DNA from: Desulfovibrio piger
Lineage (GTDB): Bacteria; Desulfobacterota; Desulfovibrionia; Desulfovibrionales; Desulfovibrionaceae
Assembly: GCF_012843875.1 (NCBI RefSeq)
Contig: NZ_JABAFY010000004.1
Coordinates: 1-64,000 of the forward strand
DNA: 64,000 bases
Direction of reading: 5' to 3'
Part shown: positions 17,755 through 52,458 of the stretch, piece by piece
Numbering within the stretch: the first letter of the stretch is position 1
Layout of the letters: each line of letters begins with the position of its first letter
Notes under the pieces: generated by a model
Databases searched by the model: none
The model's input: only the letters and a program-made list of their open reading frames with translations
Told to the model about the DNA's origin: nothing
Translations under genes and position numbers: made by a program

Positions 17755-20700
17755 CTAGCACTGGACGATGCGCACGTCGCCGCGGGTCTCGTTGGCGCGG
17801 CGGCGGAAGCGCTGGCGGCGGTCCTCACCGTCCACCTGGTTGGCCAGCCATTCCAGCACGTGCAGCACGGGGTGCTTTTCCTTGAGCTGGATGAGGCAGC
17901 GGGCGATGCCGATCTTGCAGGAGGGGCAGCCCACCAGGATGGGCCCCGCGTAGCAGGCGCCGGTCTGCGGCTGGGGCTCGAAGGCCTGGGCCAGGCGTTC
18001 CTTTTTGCGGGCGCGCAGCAGGTTGTAGATGGTGGGGGAGGTCACGGCGCCCATGCCGGACTCGCCGCAGCAGCCGGGGATGGTGGAGACCTTGACCTTG
18101 CAGAGCTGTTCCAGGGCGCCGGTAAGCTGGGCCTGTCCCTTGAGGGTGGGCACGCCCGCCCATTCGCAGTGGCAGGCCGCGTGATAGAGCACATTGGTGC
18201 CGGGGGCCACCGGGGCTTCCATGCCCTCGTGCTGCAGCAGGGGCAGGACGATCTGGCTCACGTCCTTCTGTTCCAGCTGCGGGAACTGCTCGTTGAGCTT
18301 CATGCGGGCCAGGCTGTCGCGGCAGGAACCGCAGGCCGTGGCCAGATAGCGCACATCGAAGCCCTGCTTGATGAGGTTGCGCAGCATGGAGGCCAGATAC
18401 TGGCGGTTCTGGGCCATGTTGTCTTCGTATTCGGTATCCATGCCCGCGGCCAGCAGGGGATAGCCGCAGCACAAATGGCGCGGCGGCACGGCCACGGCGT
18501 GGCCGGTGTGCAGCAGCAGCATGATGGCGGCCAGACCGATGCGGTCATAGAAGAGCGAACCGCCGCAGCCGGGGAAGTAGAGCACGCAGGGCATGCCCGG
18601 CGTCACTTCCCTGGGCGCGAACACGGAACCGCGGTGCAGGCGCAGGGATTCGTACAGGTTGGTGTAGCCCATCTTGGGGCCGCTGCCCGCAAAGATGGGG
18701 CTCTGCATGCGCTTCTTCCACACGGAGGGCACCACGCCCAGCAGCTTGTTCTGCACCTTCTGGCCCAGCGAGGCCATCTTGGCCGCCTTGGGCACGCGGG
18801 ACGAAACGTCATGCACCAGCCATTCCAGGGCACGCTTCTTGATGGGATGACCGCCGGCGTTCTCGTGTTCCAGCAGGGAGCGCAGGGTCAGGGCCACCTC
18901 GCCGGACGGGATCTTGACCGGGCAGTTGGCCAGGCAGCGGCCGCAGGCCGTGCAGTGTTCCACCAGGTCGCGCAGCCAGCGCAGCAGGTTGTCGTCGATG
19001 GCGCCCTTGTTGACCTGCGAGTAATAGACGGCTTCCAGCAGCATGCCCAGCACCATGTTCTTGTTGCGGGGATGGTACTGCATGGAACGCTCGGGGTAGC
19101 ACATGGAGCAGACCTGCTTGCACTTGCCGCAGCGGGTGCAGACCTGCACCGTGGACAGCAGGCTGATGAGCTTTTCCTTGTCCGGCAGACCGCTGGCGTG
19201 GATGTCGTTGATGAGCCGGTTGAAGGAGAAGGTGAAGGGACGCACGGGCAGTTCGCGATGCACCAGCTTGGCCGGGTTCATGACGTCGCGGGGGTCCACG
19301 CGTTCCTTGAAGGCGCGCAGGGCGTCCATCTTGCTCTTGCCGAGGAAGGAGATCTTGGTGATGCCGATGCCGTGCTCGCCGGAGACCTCGCCGCCCATCT
19401 CCTGGCATTCGGCCATGACGCGGGCCGCGGTCTCTTCGGCCTCTTCCAGCATGTGGGCGTCGTTGGAGTTGACCGGGATGTTCACATGGCAGTTGCCGTC
19501 ACCGGCATGCATGTGGCTGGCCACCACGATGCGGCTGGCTTCCATGTAATCGCGGATTTTGCCGATCTTCTTGTCCAGATGGGCGTACTTCTGGCCCATG
19601 CCGGCCAAAAAGGCCTCGGCGCGCTTCCAGAGCTCGGTATCGGAAAGCTCGGCCTGCGGGTTGTCGCCGGACGCCACCTTGGAGGCAAAGGAGAACTCGC
19701 GGTTGAATTCCTTGTCTTCCATGGGGAAGCCGGGCAGGCGGCCCACTTCCTGCAGGGCGTGGCGGTAGGCCTGGGCCGTGCATTCCAGGTTGAGCTGTTC
19801 GAGGAAGAGGGCGAAGTCCGGGATGCGGTCCATGGGTATGACCACGTCCTCGTTGAGCTTGAAGCCGGAGGTGCGCTTGGCGATGGCCGACAGGCGGTGC
19901 CGGTCTTCCCAGAAGCGTTCGCCTTCCTTGTCGTCCTGGGCCACGATGATGTCCACGTTGTCCTGTTCTTCCACCACGCAGACGATGTCGTTGACGCACT
20001 TGTCCAGCAGGTAGGGGTCGTCGCCGTCCACCTGGAGGATGATGACCGAGATGGGCAGGCCCTCATACTTCTGGGACTTGCGCTTGTACTCGATGGCCTG
20101 CACGTACTTGGCGTTGAATTCTTCCAGGGCGGACAGATGGGCGTAGTCGCCTTCCTGACGGATGCGGTTGCGCAGGCCCACCAGCTCGCGCACCACCACG
20201 GCGGCGGGGTGCATGGAGCGGCCGAAGAATTCCAGCACCATGACGCGCTTGAACTTGGGCTTGGGATGGATGATGAAGCAGGCCTCGGTGATGATGCCGT
20301 CCACGCCTTCCTTCTGCATGCCGGGCAGGCCGCCCAGGGCCTTGTTGGTCACGTCCTTGCCCAGGCCGGGCAGGCGGATCTCGTCGCCGCGCAGGTGGAT
20401 GACGTTGCGCACGCCGCCGCTGATGTCCTTGACCACGAACACGGCCGTTTCTTCGGGCAGGATCTTGTGGCGGGGATGGTTCTCGCGTTCCACGCTGATG
20501 ATCTCGCCCGTGGGGGTGACCATGCGCCACCAGAGCAGGTTGTCCAGGGTGGTGCCGTATTCGAAGGCGCTGGGGCCGCCGGCGTTTTCGGAGACGTTGC
20601 CGCCGATGGACGAGGCCTGCTTGGAGGCCGGGTCCACGGAGAAGAGTGCCCCGGCCGCGTCCACGGCCTTGATGACGTTCTGGGTGATGGCGCCGGCTTC

Positions 20701-21321
20701 CACGGTGACGGTCATGTTCTCAAGGTCGATGGGGCCGATCTTGGTCAGACGGGTGAGGCTGACGATGACCGTACGCTTGCGGGCCGGCACGGCGCCGCCG
20801 GTCATGCCGGAGCCGCCGCCGCGCGGGATGAGGGCAAACTTCATGTCGTTGGCCAGCTTCACCAGGGCAGCCACCTGCTCGGCGCTGTCGGGTTCCACCA
20901 CCAGCAGGGGCAGTTCCATGCGCAGGTCCGTGGCGTCCGTGGCCGAGGCCACCAGGGCGGAGGGCGAGGAAAGGATGCACTCGTTGGGCAGGATGTTGCG
21001 CAGGGCGGAGATCAGCTCTTCGCGGAAGCTGCGTTCGGCCTCGTAAGCGGACCAGAACATGGTGATGCCTTCGCCGATGGCGTTGGCGAAATAGTGGGCC
21101 AGGGCCATGGATTCCCGTTCGAAGCGGGCGTGCACGCTGTTGCGCACGGTCTCCACGTTGATGAAGGGGTTGTAGGCCACCAGGAACAGTTCTTCGGCAA
21201 TGGCAATGGCCAGATGCCGCACAGACTCGGGCCACTCCGCGAAGTCGTCGATATTGATACGCAGGATGCGGTTGACCACATAGTCAGGTGAGATGGATAT
21301 GTGCGGACCCTTGTGAGCCAT
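17755..21321 (-). CDS. FAD-linked D-lactate-dehydrogenase-type / Fe-S oxidoreductase fusion
   Basis: A 1188-residue cytoplasmic or membrane-associated oxidoreductase. The N-terminal half is a PCMH-type FAD domain (PRGGGSGMTGG, SIGGNVSENAGG) plus the FAD-oxidase C domain with HMHAGDGNCHVN and GEHGIGI. The C-terminal half has two [4Fe-4S] motifs (CTRCGKCKQVC and CTACGRCLANC) and paired CCG domains (LCCGYPLL, ACGSCRDS, GCCGESG). Such fusions in Desulfovibrio are considered D-lactate dehydrogenases or related 2-hydroxyacid oxidases that hand electrons to quinone or Fe-S acceptors; substrate is not provable here. ATG 21321 begins MAHKGPH. Divergent from the membrane gene at 21585. Confidence 0.85.
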   Translation of the reverse strand: MAHKGPHISISPDYVVNRILRINIDDFAEWPESVRHLAIAIAEELFLVAYNPFINVETVRNSVHARFERESMALAHYFANAIGEGITMFWSAYEAERSFREELISALRNILPNECILSSPSALVASATDATDLRMELPLLVVEPDSAEQVAALVKLANDMKFALIPRGGGSGMTGGAVPARKRTVIVSLTRLTKIGPIDLENMTVTVEAGAITQNVIKAVDAAGALFSVDPASKQASSIGGNVSENAGGPSAFEYGTTLDNLLWWRMVTPTGEIISVERENHPRHKILPEETAVFVVKDISGGVRNVIHLRGDEIRLPGLGKDVTNKALGGLPGMQKEGVDGIITEACFIIHPKPKFKRVMVLEFFGRSMHPAAVVVRELVGLRNRIRQEGDYAHLSALEEFNAKYVQAIEYKRKSQKYEGLPISVIILQVDGDDPYLLDKCVNDIVCVVEEQDNVDIIVAQDDKEGERFWEDRHRLSAIAKRTSGFKLNEDVVIPMDRIPDFALFLEQLNLECTAQAYRHALQEVGRLPGFPMEDKEFNREFSFASKVASGDNPQAELSDTELWKRAEAFLAGMGQKYAHLDKKIGKIRDYMEASRIVVASHMHAGDGNCHVNIPVNSNDAHMLEEAEETAARVMAECQEMGGEVSGEHGIGITKISFLGKSKMDALRAFKERVDPRDVMNPAKLVHRELPVRPFTFSFNRLINDIHASGLPDKEKLISLLSTVQVCTRCGKCKQVCSMCYPERSMQYHPRNKNMVLGMLLEAVYYSQVNKGAIDDNLLRWLRDLVEHCTACGRCLANCPVKIPSGEVALTLRSLLEHENAGGHPIKKRALEWLVHDVSSRVPKAAKMASLGQKVQNKLLGVVPSVWKKRMQSPIFAGSGPKMGYTNLYESLRLHRGSVFAPREVTPGMPCVLYFPGCGGSLFYDRIGLAAIMLLLHTGHAVAVPPRHLCCGYPLLAAGMDTEYEDNMAQNRQYLASMLRNLIKQGFDVRYLATACGSCRDSLARMKLNEQFPQLEQKDVSQIVLPLLQHEGMEAPVAPGTNVLYHAACHCEWAGVPTLKGQAQLTGALEQLCKVKVSTIPGCCGESGMGAVTSPTIYNLLRARKKERLAQAFEPQPQTGACYAGPILVGCPSCKIGIARCLIQLKEKHPVLHVLEWLANQVDGEDRRQRFRRRANETRGDVRIVQC

Positions 21322-21584
21322 GGCGTAGGTACCTCGTTGTCTTCTGCATTTTCCTTGTGCACGGGCCCGGCGGGCCGGATGCACAAGTGGAGAAACCTTG
21401 TTTTTTACTGCTATTGGCCGCGCAAGGCAAGCACGCCCCCATACTGGGGCCACTGTCTTCGCCAGAGAGGAAAAAAGCGTCAGGAACGATTCCTGTCATT
21501 CCTGTCATGCCTTGTCCTCTTTACATTTTCCCGAACTTGAAAGATGCTGTGCGCCACACACGATCCCCGGAAAGGAGACTCCAC

Positions 21585-22688
21585 ATGCTGCTCAAGCTGC
21601 AATGGCTTACAGATATTTTTGACTGGTTGCACCACAATTGGGAGCGGACCCACGTCCAGCGCAAGGTGGCGCTGGTCATCTTCTGGATCTACGTGGCGGC
21701 CCTGTGCTGCGTGGAGCTCAAACGCCAGGGCATGCTGCCGCCCGCACTGGCCCAGCTGACGCCCCACAGCCATTTCAGCGCCATCCAGCTGGCCTTCACC
21801 CTGATCCTGGGCCTGGAGGTCATGAGCCTGATCTTCATCATCTCCACATCCTTTTCACGGTCCGTGGGCAAGCAGTTCGAGATCCTGGCGCTGATCCTGC
21901 TGCGCAATGCCTTCAAGGAGCTGGCGCACCTGCCCGAGCCGGTGAGCATCGCCGGCAACCTCGATCCCGTCATCCATATCGCGGTTACGGCGCTGGGGGC
22001 CCTGGGCATCTTCGTGGCCCTGGGCATCTACGGGAAGCTGGCCTCCAGCTATGCCTACATCCAGAGCCCGGAGATGCGCATGCGTTTCGTCATCAGCAAA
22101 AAGCTGCTTTCGCTGACGCTGTTCGTCATCTTTTTGGGCATCGGCATCCGGGATGCCTGGATCCACATCCACACCGGCGAGGACATGCGCTTTTTCGAGA
22201 CCATCTATACGGTGCTGATCTTCGCCGACATCGCGCTGGTCCTCATTTCGCAGCGCTACATGCCGTCCTTCCATGCGGTGTTCCGCAACTCCGGCTTCGT
22301 CATCGGCACGCTGATGATGCGTCTGGCCCTTTCGGCCACCCCGCCGTGGGACACGGCCGCCAGCCTGTTCGCGGCCGCCTACGTGCTGGCCCTGACCTGG
22401 GCCACCAGATACTTCCGGCCCGCGGCCCTGCGCGGCCCCCAGCTGCCTGCCTCGTCCCGCGAGACGGAGCACCTGCCCCCGTCCTACGGCAAGGTGCCGG
22501 AGCCCGCGGAACCGCGTGAGGGCGTGCTCTACGGCAAGCCGCATCTGGAAGCCTGGCGGCAGCGCCGCAAGACCCGGGAGGCGGCCCTGCCCGTGGCGCG
22601 GGAGGAATGCGTGTTCGGCGCTGCGGAGCGCCGCGCCCGGCGCACGATGCCCCGTCCTCCGGCCGGAAAGAAGAAAGCCGCCAGCTGA
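21585..22688 (+). CDS. Unrecognised multi-pass membrane protein with basic tail
   Basis: A 367-residue protein I cannot place. About seven or eight hydrophobic helices span residues 27-290 (for example VALVIFWIYVAALCCVEL, IAVTALGALGIFVALGIYG and LFVIFLGIGIRDAW), followed by a cytoplasmic-looking tail of some 75 residues rich in Arg, Lys, Pro and Ala. AAAGGAG precedes the ATG. It is divergent from the FAD/Fe-S oxidoreductase, 263 bp away, which hints at shared regulation but proves nothing. Terminator at 22765. Confidence 0.75.
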   Translation: MLLKLQWLTDIFDWLHHNWERTHVQRKVALVIFWIYVAALCCVELKRQGMLPPALAQLTPHSHFSAIQLAFTLILGLEVMSLIFIISTSFSRSVGKQFEILALILLRNAFKELAHLPEPVSIAGNLDPVIHIAVTALGALGIFVALGIYGKLASSYAYIQSPEMRMRFVISKKLLSLTLFVIFLGIGIRDAWIHIHTGEDMRFFETIYTVLIFADIALVLISQRYMPSFHAVFRNSGFVIGTLMMRLALSATPPWDTAASLFAAAYVLALTWATRYFRPAALRGPQLPASSRETEHLPPSYGKVPEPAEPREGVLYGKPHLEAWRQRRKTREAALPVAREECVFGAAERRARRTMPRPPAGKKKAAS

Positions 22689-49107: not shown

Positions 49108-52100
49108 ATGGGCGTCGCTGAATATGTCCGGGCCCTGCTGGCCTCGGACAAGCTGGGGCCGCAGGTACGGCATCACCGTTGCGAGCCCGCGCGGGCGGCC
49201 GTCTATGCGGAAAGCCGCCTGCCCTGGCCCGCGGCCATCCGGCGCACGCTGGAGGAGCGCGGCCTGAGCGGCCTTTACAGCCATCAGGCCCTGGCCACAG
49301 ACCACATCCGCGCCGGGCATTCCGTGGTGGTGGCCACGCCCACGGCCAGCGGCAAGAGCCTCATCTACAATCTGCCGGTGCTGGAGCGCCATCTGCGCGA
49401 CAGCGAGGCCCGCGCCCTCTATCTTTTCCCGCTCAAGGCCCTGGCCCAGGACCAGCTGGCCGGGCTGCAGCGCCTGGTCTCCGGCTGGCCCGAAGAGGCC
49501 CGGCCCACGGCCGCCCTCTATGACGGCGACACCAGCGACCATTTCCGGCGCAAGATCCGCCGCGACCCGCCCACGGTGCTCATCAGCAATCCCGAGATGC
49601 TGCACCTGGCCCTGCTGCCGCACCATGAGCAGTGGGCCCCCTTCCTGGCCGGGCTGTCCCATATCGTGGTGGACGAGGCCCATACCTACCGCGGCGTGTT
49701 CGGCGCGCACATGGCGGGCGTGTTCCGCCGTCTCAACCGGCTGGCCGCCCATTACGGCGCTACGCCGTCCTATGTTTTTTGCACGGCCACGGTGGGCAAT
49801 CCCGGCGAGCTGGCCGCGTCGCTCTCCGGCCTCGACCTGCTGCCCGGCCGCCAGCCGCCCGTGGTGGTGGACCAGTCCGGCGCGCCGCAGGGCGCACGGC
49901 ATTACGTCTTCCTCGATCCCGACCAGAGCCCGGCCACGGCGGCCATCGATCTGTTGCGGGCCGCGCTGGCGCGCAAGCTGCGCACCATCGTCTACTGCCG
50001 TTCCCGCCGCATGACCGAGCTGGTCAGCCTGTGGGCCGGGAGCCTTTCCGGGCCGTGGGCGGGCCGCATCTCCGCCTATCGTGCGGGATTCCTGCCCGAG
50101 GAACGCCGCCAGATCGAGGCCCGCATGGCCTCGGGCGAGCTGCTGGCCGTGGTCAGCACCAGCGCCCTGGAGCTGGGCATCGACATCGGCGGGCTGGATG
50201 TCTGCATTTTGGTGGGCTATCCGGGCACCATCATGTCCACCCTGCAGCGGGGCGGGCGCGTGGGCCGGGCGCAGCAGGAGTCGGCCGTGGTGCTGGTGGC
50301 GGGCGAGGACGCGCTGGACCAGTATTTCATGAGCCATCCCGAAGACTTTTTCAGCCGTCCGGCGGAAAAGGCCGTGGTCAACCCCTGGAACGAGGTCATC
50401 CTGGCCCGGCATCTGGAATGCGCGGCCGCCGAGCTGCCCCTGTCCGCCCGTGATCCCTGGCTGGCCCCGGCCCCGGCGCAGGAGGCCCTGCGCGCTCTGG
50501 CGGCCCAGGGGCGCCTGCTGCTCTCCGCCGACGGCAGCCAGTGGCTGGCCGCCCGCAAGCGGCCGCAGCGGCTGGTGGATCTGCGCGGGACGGGCCGGAG
50601 CTTCGTCATCGAGGACAGCGAGGGCACGGTCATCGGTTCCGTGGACGGCTTCCGGGCCTGGCGCGAGACCCATGTGGGCGCGGTCTACCTGCACCGGGGC
50701 CGCAGCTATGTCATCGAGGAGATGGACCCGGCAGCGGGCCGGGTGCGGGCCCGTCAGGCCAAAGTGGACTGGTTCACGCGGGTGCGCGGCCACAAGAGCA
50801 CGGACATCCTTGAAGAGCTGGAGCGCCGTCCCCTGGGGCGCGGCGTGGTCTGCCGGGGGCGTCTGCGCATCATCGACACCATCACCGGCTACGAGAAGCG
50901 CAGCACGCGCGACAACCGCCTGCTGACCATCGTGCCGCTGGAAGCTCCGCCGCAGATCTTTGAGACCGAGGGCCTGTGGTACGTCATCCCCGAGAGCTGC
51001 CGCCAGCGTCTTGAAGATGATTTCGTGCACTTCATGGGCTCCATCCATGCCTGCGAGCATACGGCCATCGGCATGCTGCCCCTGCTGGTCATGGCCGACC
51101 GCAACGATTTCGGCGGCATCTCCATCCCGCTCCATCCCCAGACCGGCCTGGCCTGCGTCTTCATCTACGACGGCCTGCCCGGCGGCGCGGGCCTGACGCG
51201 TCAGGCCTTCGGCCATGCCCGCGAGCTGCTGGAGGTCTGCGCGGCGGTCATCGAGGCCTGCCCCTGCGAGGACGGCTGTCCTTCCTGCGTGCATTCGCCC
51301 AAGTGCGGCTCTGGCAACCGGCCCATCAGCAAGGCCGGGGCCCTGCGCCTGATCCGCGATCTGCTGGCACCCGGTGCGGATGCCGAGGGCGAGGCCCTGT
51401 GCGCCGACCTGCGCATCAGCCCGCCGCCGGAACTGCTGCCGCCCCAACCTGTGGACGAGCCCGCGGCCCCGGTGCCGCCGCCCGTGCCGGACATGGCGGC
51501 CATCATGGCGGCCTGGGCCGGACAGGCCCCCACCACGGCCCCGGCGGGAGCTGCGGGACAGGCCGGGCCGGGTGCCCGGACAAGCGCCGCTGGAGTCGGA
51601 GGAGCCGGGACGGTGGCTTCGGAAGGCGTTCCTTCGCAGGAGGAGCGTATCGAGGGCCGCGGAGGAGAGGTCTTTGTGGCCGGTACGAGTCCGCAGACCA
51701 GCGCATCCGCCGCAGCCGGGAAGCCTTCCGGCAAACAGGTGGCCCTTCCGCCCCAGTCATCCCCGGTGGCAGGACGGAAGACCGGCGGGGCCACGGCGGC
51801 AACAGCCACCCTGGCGATTATGCAAAAGCCGGGGCTTATGGCTCCTGCCGTAGCTGTCGGTGATGCGGGCAACGTCCGTGTCCGTCCCGAGCCCGGTGTG
51901 GGCGCGGTGGGCAGGCCGCCGGAACATTATCTGGTCTTCGACGTGGAGACCCGGCGCAGCGCCGCCGAGGTGGGCGGCTGGAACAGGGCCGACCGCATGG
52001 GCGTGAGCATCGCCGTGGCCTATGACAGCCGGGCCGACGATTTCTTCACCTATACGCAGGAGGCCCTGCCGGATCTCTTTGCCCGCATGCGGGCCGCGCA

Positions 52101-52458
52101 GCTGGTGGTGGGCTTCAACTCCTTCCGCTTCGATTACGCGGTGCTCTCGGCCTTCGCGCCCTTCGAGCTGCGGGCCCTGCCGGGCCTTGACCTCTTGCGC
52201 CGGGTGCAGGACAGTCTCAAGTACCGCGTGTCCCTGGACAATCTGGGGCAGGCGACCCTGGACGAGCCCAAGAGCGCCGACGGCCTGCAGGCCCTGCGCT
52301 GGTGGCAGGAAGGGCGGCTGGACGACATCGCCGCCTACTGCCGCAAGGACGTGGACCTGACGCGGCGGCTCTACCTTTTCGGGCTGGAACACGGCTGGTT
52401 GCTTTTCACCAACAAGGCCGGGCAGCGTGTGCGCGTGCCCGTGGATTTCAGGCAGTGA
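49108..52458 (+). CDS. MrfA-like helicase fused to MrfB-like DEDD exonuclease
   Basis: An 1116-residue protein. Residues 1-680 are a superfamily 2 helicase with Walker A ATPTASGKS (76-84), DEAH (189-192) and CTATVGNP, plus helicase C motifs (STSALELGIDIG, RGGRVGRA). Residues about 690-735 form the DUF1998-type cysteine cluster (CPCEDGCPSC...CGSGN), as in YprA/MrfA. A low-complexity Ala/Gly/Pro linker (about 775-935) leads to a DEDD 3'-5' exonuclease domain: VFDVET, VVGFNSFRFDY, and YCRKDVDLT. Bacillus MrfA and MrfB act together in mitomycin-lesion repair as separate proteins. The start (GGGAGG... about 8 nt upstream) is good. Confidence 0.9.
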   Translation: MGVAEYVRALLASDKLGPQVRHHRCEPARAAVYAESRLPWPAAIRRTLEERGLSGLYSHQALATDHIRAGHSVVVATPTASGKSLIYNLPVLERHLRDSEARALYLFPLKALAQDQLAGLQRLVSGWPEEARPTAALYDGDTSDHFRRKIRRDPPTVLISNPEMLHLALLPHHEQWAPFLAGLSHIVVDEAHTYRGVFGAHMAGVFRRLNRLAAHYGATPSYVFCTATVGNPGELAASLSGLDLLPGRQPPVVVDQSGAPQGARHYVFLDPDQSPATAAIDLLRAALARKLRTIVYCRSRRMTELVSLWAGSLSGPWAGRISAYRAGFLPEERRQIEARMASGELLAVVSTSALELGIDIGGLDVCILVGYPGTIMSTLQRGGRVGRAQQESAVVLVAGEDALDQYFMSHPEDFFSRPAEKAVVNPWNEVILARHLECAAAELPLSARDPWLAPAPAQEALRALAAQGRLLLSADGSQWLAARKRPQRLVDLRGTGRSFVIEDSEGTVIGSVDGFRAWRETHVGAVYLHRGRSYVIEEMDPAAGRVRARQAKVDWFTRVRGHKSTDILEELERRPLGRGVVCRGRLRIIDTITGYEKRSTRDNRLLTIVPLEAPPQIFETEGLWYVIPESCRQRLEDDFVHFMGSIHACEHTAIGMLPLLVMADRNDFGGISIPLHPQTGLACVFIYDGLPGGAGLTRQAFGHARELLEVCAAVIEACPCEDGCPSCVHSPKCGSGNRPISKAGALRLIRDLLAPGADAEGEALCADLRISPPPELLPPQPVDEPAAPVPPPVPDMAAIMAAWAGQAPTTAPAGAAGQAGPGARTSAAGVGGAGTVASEGVPSQEERIEGRGGEVFVAGTSPQTSASAAAGKPSGKQVALPPQSSPVAGRKTGGATAATATLAIMQKPGLMAPAVAVGDAGNVRVRPEPGVGAVGRPPEHYLVFDVETRRSAAEVGGWNRADRMGVSIAVAYDSRADDFFTYTQEALPDLFARMRAAQLVVGFNSFRFDYAVLSAFAPFELRALPGLDLLRRVQDSLKYRVSLDNLGQATLDEPKSADGLQALRWWQEGRLDDIAAYCRKDVDLTRRLYLFGLEHGWLLFTNKAGQRVRVPVDFRQ

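Follow-up and report, generated by a model that had tools for sequence, protein, structure and literature searches.

The window analysed here is a 64,000-nucleotide stretch of the Desulfovibrio piger genome, taken from a contig of 126,738 bases (NZ_JABAFY010000004.1), and the helicase-exonuclease gene in question occupies its positions 49108–52458 on the plus strand. The gene is one open reading frame of 1116 amino acids (aa) with no internal stop, whose single chain combines a predicted helicase that bears a zinc domain with a DEDD exonuclease of 176 residues, the two being joined by a disordered linker. A preliminary description of this locus had named the helicase, the cysteine cluster, the low-complexity linker and the DEDD exonuclease as parts of a single 1116-residue protein, and the reading frame, the Pfam matches, the motifs and the structure models all agreed with it. 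The linker is rich in small residues and proline (40 A, 27 G and 26 P among the 183 residues from 753 to 935), and residues 777–933 of the full-chain AlphaFold2 model, which correspond to it, stay under a predicted local distance difference test (pLDDT) score of 50. The distance from the cysteine cluster to the exonuclease is 211 aa in the window protein and 52–79 aa in 17 of 21 relatives, with a range of 52–205 aa. Such variable lengths suggest that a fixed geometry between helicase and exonuclease is unlikely.

The catalytic residues D945, E947, D1009, Y1077 and D1081 were invariant in 38/38 aligned rows, the window's own row included (38 of 40 loci were used, two incomplete ones being left out), and in a wider set of 31 rows they were kept in all but one locus, L122. 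The acidic residues on which the preliminary exonuclease assignment depended are thus all present. When the last 176 residues were modelled alone, a model with a pLDDT of 94.4 was obtained. Its best matches among solved folds were proofreading exonuclease domains, those of T7 DNA polymerase and of archaeal family B DNA polymerases, with a Foldseek E of 5e-7 and, in VIA-align, a Z of 15.4 over 159 residues at 3.5 Å (Z 14–15.4 among the 50 matches listed). The 50 matches listed by each of the two programs were all polymerases; the solved MrfB structure 8un9 was not among them, which excludes nothing. All 18 domains of our profile A1 matched PHROG 403, "DNA polymerase exonuclease subunit", with a best E of 1.3e-14. 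The RNase_H_2 model (PF13482, cut-off 22 bits) gave 18.8 bits for the full chain and 23.8 bits for the domain alone; it finds only part of the fused domains (no match in 7/12 genomes of the genus) and was not used for counting. A search of the domain sequence against solved structures returned no match, and domain-profile searches of the solved structures gave no convincing one (best E 0.018, to a respiratory-chain subunit and taken as chance; 0.038 with the other profile, to T7 polymerase). Judged by its DxE, D and YxxxD motifs on a DnaQ-type fold, the C-terminal domain is a predicted DEDDy 3′–5′ exonuclease.

The characterised MrfB was documented to be of the DEDDh type, with the residues His258 and Asp262, and to carry a tetratricopeptide repeat (TPR) domain at its C-terminus (PMC11194089). 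The window domain has Y-x3-D at the position of this His/Asp pair, and it is therefore of the DEDDy type. True mrfAB operons, in which the exonuclease gene adjoins a YprA helicase gene, are present in other families of the phylum and allowed a direct comparison. Operon-type MrfB showed the signatures D.ETTGL.GG.GT and HN..D in 21/21 rows, the 17 proteins of the operon MrfB profile (A2) measured 415–489 aa, and one of these operon proteins matched the solved MrfB 8un9 (E 1.2e-28, 103 bits) with the HN..D histidines aligned. In contrast to MrfB, the fused domain is 176 aa long and lacks the D.ETTGL.GG.GT signature, the MrfB N-terminal region and the C-terminal TPRs, and profile A2 found no match in the window genome at E 1e-10. 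By hhalign, the fused domain reached MrfB with a probability of 20 (E 1e-3; 66 and 6e-5 with the broader set A4) and stand-alone PF13482 DEDDy proteins with a probability of 96 (E 1e-8; 96 and 1e-9 with A4), whereas MrfB reached these stand-alone proteins with a probability of 99 (E 8e-16). Profile A4 and the exonuclease trees comprise, in addition to the window's domain, 21 fused domains, five of the six helicase-less (solo) fused-type exonucleases (L156 was left out) and L160, whose gene is truncated at a contig end; three of the 20 loci from a single-sequence genome search were also included in A4. A quick tree with 18 MrfB rows and 12 other solo PF13482 rows carried a warning of long branches meeting, L145 being long. 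In a careful tree, which kept 8/18 of the MrfB rows, 7/12 of the solo rows and 11/14 viral loci, the fused, viral and solo fused-type rows were parted from MrfB and the other solo PF13482 rows with a support of 100/94. Both trees set the fused-type exonucleases apart from MrfB as well as from the remaining solo proteins and, being unrooted, give no order of nearness for those two. An MrfB identity of the C-terminal domain was rejected by the catalytic type, the signature and the length as well as by profile and tree.

Relatives of the domain were found on viral contigs, where the scan matched at least 14 loci. Eleven of these (L181–L191, of which L189 and L190 are identical) are stand-alone frames of 133–242 aa for which A4 gave far better scores than did the MrfB and solo profiles and which, unlike the window protein, have no helicase; L192–L194 were weak A4 matches. 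Ten neighbouring proteins from seven viral loci were scanned. The exonuclease sits between terminase and portal genes in L183 and L187, it adjoins a phage helicase loader in L181, and a portal gene lies nearby in L189. The tested neighbours of L182 and L188 had no family match, and those of L186 and the other L189 gene had ATPase-like and aminotransferase family matches. In the careful tree, the viral L181 nests among the fused rows, and a single clade of fused and solo rows was neither shown nor rejected (approximately unbiased test, p-AU 0.41). With the single domain sequence, three matches were obtained among phage records at 27–30% identity, two of them from the same phage, and none among plasmids at E 1e-3. 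By these comparisons, the closest non-fused relatives found for the domain are the PHROG 403 family and the stand-alone exonucleases of the viral contigs L181–L191.

The helicase half has the features of the YprA/MrfA superfamily, namely the DEAD and Helicase_C domains, the winged helix and the MrfA zinc-binding domain (MZB) with its cysteine cluster. Its best solved relative was Bacillus subtilis MrfA/YprA (6znp, E 1.7e-140), at 473 bits, whereas an mrfAB-operon helicase from the same phylum, the partner of the operon protein that matched 8un9, scored 765 bits against the same protein. In a helicase tree of 47 rows, a branch with 100/100 support split 13 mrfAB-operon rows from 26 fused and 8 unfused rows, and a single origin of the fused helicases was neither shown nor rejected (p-AU 0.44). 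Membership of the MrfA orthologue group that partners MrfB was rejected, as the window protein lies outside the clade of 13 mrfA-operon rows. A RecQ/WRN-family helicase was also rejected (TIGR00614, 53.5 bits against a cut-off of 219.8). The window helicase belongs to the YprA/MrfA family, on a branch other than the mrfA-operon clade. The preliminary description had called the protein a fusion of an MrfA-type helicase and an MrfB-type exonuclease, and in this it was partly right. A helicase of the YprA/MrfA family is indeed joined to a DEDD exonuclease, but neither the MrfB identity nor a place in the mrfA-operon clade held. Its further argument, that the fusion acts as a Rosetta stone linking MrfA and MrfB outside Firmicutes, is needless, as separate mrfAB operons occur in the phylum. 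The analogy of a helicase and a 3′–5′ exonuclease acting together stands as a likely parallel case, not the same pair fused.

Table 1. Features of the helicase-exonuclease gene, with positions counted from the first letter of the window.
Feature	Position	Strand	Basis
Whole gene, helicase-exonuclease, 1116 aa	49108..52458	+	Open reading frame without stop; relatives share the architecture
DEAD domain (RecA1), aa 58-230; Walker A ATPTASGKS at 76, DEAH at 189	49279..49797	+	Pfam whole-protein E 1.5e-26; motifs
Helicase_C domain (RecA2), aa 283-388; QRGGRVGR at 380	49954..50271	+	Pfam E 4e-13; motif
HRQ1-type winged helix, aa 425-495	50380..50592	+	Pfam WHD_HRQ1 E 8.5e-9
MrfA zinc-binding domain (MZB), aa 650-728	51055..51291	+	Pfam E 1.5e-18; PF09369 genome match at the same place
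Cysteine cluster CPCEDGCPSCVHSPKC, aa 718-733	51259..51306	+	Motif; C718, C720, C724, C727 and C733 invariant in 21/21 full-length proteins including the window's
Low-complexity A/G/P-rich linker, aa 753-940; predicted disorder aa 777-933	51364..51927	+	Composition of 753-935; pLDDT < 50
Predicted DEDDy exonuclease domain, aa 941-1116	51928..52455	+	Proofreading-exonuclease fold, Z up to 15.4; phrog_403 E 2.3e-10
Catalytic motif I, D945 and E947	51940..51948	+	38/38; wider set D945 30/31, E947 31/31
Catalytic motif II, D1009	52132..52134	+	38/38; wider set 31/31
Catalytic motif III, Y1077-x3-D1081 (DEDDy)	52336..52350	+	38/38; wider set Y 31/31, D 30/31

The domain pair, which the preliminary description had proposed to look for in Desulfovibrionaceae, was found to be common there, and mostly in one long frame. 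The domain was detected in 123/149 genomes of the family (39/44 genera), and 110 of the 121 strong matches lie in a frame of at least 900 aa. Profile A1 matched 130/395 genomes of the phylum; 120 of these had a best E under 1e-35, they span 30 family codes, and 113 of them have the domain in a frame of at least 900 aa. A high-scoring MZB match was also present in 118/120 of these genomes, paired by genome and not by place. Among the shorter frames that were inspected, one was cut by a contig end (G526) and five were stand-alone genes (G047, G019, G062, G030 and G369). A scan of genome contigs with the single sequence gave 20 loci with titles of Desulfovibrio, Desulfovibrionaceae, Mailhella or Desulfobacteraceae. 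The closest named record was D. piger ATCC 29098, at 98% over a 199-residue C-terminal query; in this record (L023, 4125–4598) a run of N lies within the linker and the frames differ on its two sides, so that it cannot confirm the join. An assembly artefact, which the preliminary description had raised as a concern, is ruled out because the long frame recurs across genomes of the family and the phylum.

The fused-type domain and MrfB were not found together in any genome. Of the 395 genomes sampled from the phylum, the fused-type domain is present in 120 and an MrfB-profile match in 51, and none has both, where 15.5 would be expected; the Fisher p of 3.5e-9 overstates the exclusion, since these are related genomes (30 and 16 family codes, with f95 common to both). 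The first count takes the genomes with a best E under 1e-35 and leaves out 10 weaker ones. The second takes 51/54 matching genomes, without three whose matches are confined to the TPR end, and contains some partial or weaker matches (G310, G410 and G171). At most four candidates per genome were scored in the MrfB search and at most eight in the fused-domain search, and misses are possible. Such mutual exclusion would be expected of two systems that serve the same role. We also observed two loci (L145, 276–4057; L146, 2–2670) where an MrfB-like gene, of which L146 holds the gene end only, lies upstream of an unfused YprA helicase gene with overlapping frames, which appears to be a third arrangement in the phylum; both helicases are among the eight unfused rows of the helicase tree.

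A fused-type exonuclease without an adjoining helicase was found at six loci, and such solo rows lie inside the fused group in the exonuclease trees. The MZB search found no match in G047, G019 and G369, genomes that are 96–99% complete, nor in the less complete G062 and G030. One genome (G248) carries a second, solo fused-type exonuclease (L157, 3867–4430) in addition to the fused gene. In L155 (3114–4418) and L156 (2059–3317), a hexapeptide-transferase-like gene lies directly upstream of the helicase-less exonuclease. A homologue is found directly upstream of the fused gene in 4/8 named loci inspected (L024, L027, L032 and L037), with an identity of 50–56% to the genes of L155 and L156. This shared upstream gene suggests that in these two relatives the helicase half was most likely lost in place while the exonuclease was kept.

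Helicases paired with 3′–5′ exonucleases are known from other systems. The window protein resembles B. subtilis MrfA/YprA and MrfB/YprB, which act in mitomycin repair, in that a YprA-family superfamily 2 (SF2) helicase with an MZB is paired with a DnaQ-superfamily 3′–5′ exonuclease; it differs from them in being one chain with a helicase outside the mrfA-operon clade. WRN, the Werner protein, also carries a 3′–5′ SF2 helicase and a DEDDy-type exonuclease in one chain. WRN belongs to the RecQ family and its exonuclease is N-terminal, unlike the window protein with its YprA-family helicase and C-terminal exonuclease. A bacterial helicase-exonuclease chain is reported in Staphylococcus aureus DinG (PMC12345164), which differs from the window protein by a DEDDh exonuclease at the N-terminus and a 5′–3′ unwinding polarity. 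We also noted a 1128-aa frame (L169, 604–3987, in G466:C35) with strong RNase_H_2 and SF1-type helicase domains (AAA_12 and AAA_30), which seems to be a helicase-nuclease chain of a different make.

Taken together, we suggest, with a probability of roughly 62%, that the gene encodes a one-chain DNA-processing enzyme made of a YprA/MrfA-family helicase, a flexible linker and a DEDDy 3′–5′ exonuclease of a family that is also found in bacterial viruses, there as a gene by itself. At a gap, flap or lesion, the helicase would load on single-stranded DNA and, by analogy with MrfA, would translocate 3′–5′ while unwinding. The 3′ end emerging behind it would pass to the tethered exonuclease, which would trim it in the 3′ to 5′ direction by two-metal catalysis, as the conserved DEDDy site and the proofreading-exonuclease fold suggest. 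Its likely role is the excision of damaged DNA, a task that elsewhere in the phylum may fall to MrfA and MrfB as two proteins, and the protein probably works like MrfAB or WRN, in DNA repair. Several observations weigh against this proposal, in addition to the relatedness of the genomes behind the exclusion statistic. The direction and the substrate proposed for it are taken over from MrfA and MrfB. The best NCBIfam model of the helicase, TIGR03817, scored 714 bits, below its cut-off of 874 bits, and for this reason no characterised orthologue is named. The five tested neighbours encode a semialdehyde dehydrogenase, an aminotransferase IV, a TtuA-like PP-loop protein, an M20 peptidase and a gamma-glutamyltranspeptidase, with no repair-gene context among them. 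The fused protein of L122 (2858–3421) has Asn at the first and the last catalytic Asp positions, and its exonuclease is perhaps inactive in that one lineage. Finally, some genomes retain the exonuclease but no helicase, so that the exonuclease may have its own work.

This last point also bears on another explanation, according to which the helicase and the exonuclease are largely independent, the fusion only fixes their co-expression, and the exonuclease performs general 3′-end clean-up or proofreading-like work. The six stand-alone loci, the three nearly complete genomes G047, G019 and G369 in which the MZB helicase was not found, and a linker that is long and variable among the 21 relatives and longest in the window are consistent with it. 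We nevertheless regard it as unlikely, since the long fused frame is retained in 113 of the 120 strong-match phylum genomes and the cysteines and catalytic residues are invariant in the 21/21 aligned full-length proteins, L122 not being among them. It seems still less probable that mrfA and mrfB themselves were fused and that the exonuclease is a diverged MrfB which lost its N-terminal part and TPRs and exchanged its His for Tyr. The helicase superfamily and the order of helicase then exonuclease are the same, a weak profile link to MrfB appears when A4 is used (hhalign probability 66, E 6e-5), and MrfB has been described as structurally closer to DEDDy exonucleases although it is DEDDh (PMC11194089); on the other hand, both halves lie outside the mrfAB clades, MrfB is nearer by profile to the stand-alone PF13482 proteins (E 8e-16) than to the fused domain, and the window genome has no MrfB-profile match at E 1e-10.

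A function in anti-phage defence instead of repair was also considered, because ARMADA, Druantia and TALON include YprA-family helicases that carry a nuclease at the C-terminus (PMC12458937), PADLOC reported matches to the BrxH and DruE models, and homologous exonucleases are carried on viral contigs. We consider this very improbable: the 25 of 45 PADLOC matches listed all fall within helicase residues 37–439, the five tested neighbours include neither a methyltransferase nor any other defence gene, and the domain is present in 123/149 genomes of the family, that is, it is not patchy. An ARMADA/Druantia-type defence helicase was rejected as a candidate, the nuclease being DEDDy instead of Vsr or PLD and the five neighbours being ordinary. 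Elsewhere in the window genome (G000:C45, about 19,110–21,703; L178, 91–2684), PADLOC models identified a DISARM-type pair in which DrmB, of 609 aa and with an MZB, precedes DrmC, a PLD protein of 255 aa.

Since the exonuclease half belongs to another family than MrfB, one that bacterial viruses carry as well, a comparable helicase-exonuclease machine seems to have been assembled independently in the lineage of the window. The chances look evenly balanced for a wider view, in which there were two or more origins of MrfAB-like repair machines, one YprA lineage working with a separate DEDDh MrfB and another having captured and fused a phage-type DEDDy exonuclease, the two replacing each other across Desulfobacterota and some lineages later losing the helicase half in place while keeping the exonuclease. 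A 2025 preprint briefly mentions YprA helicases "fused to" MrfB/YprB homologs (PMC12458937); its main text contains no word starting with "desulfo" or "dedd", and it was the only mention of such a fusion found in the main texts of the open-licence literature. The same preprint reports that complementation requires alleles that are closely related. As far as that literature was searched, the DEDDy phage-like identity of the exonuclease, the exclusion of MrfB and the exonuclease that outlives its helicase are apparently new.

These findings carry a caution for annotation, as a name given by architecture, such as "MrfB fusion", can mask a different nuclease family. A single chain offers a simple route to study helicase-nuclease coupling. 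If it is true that a non-orthologous exonuclease is joined to a different YprA helicase in genomes without MrfB, the function of YprA-only and MrfAB systems would become testable by comparison, and selection would favour the pairing of a 3′–5′ helicase with a 3′–5′ exonuclease and not a particular protein.

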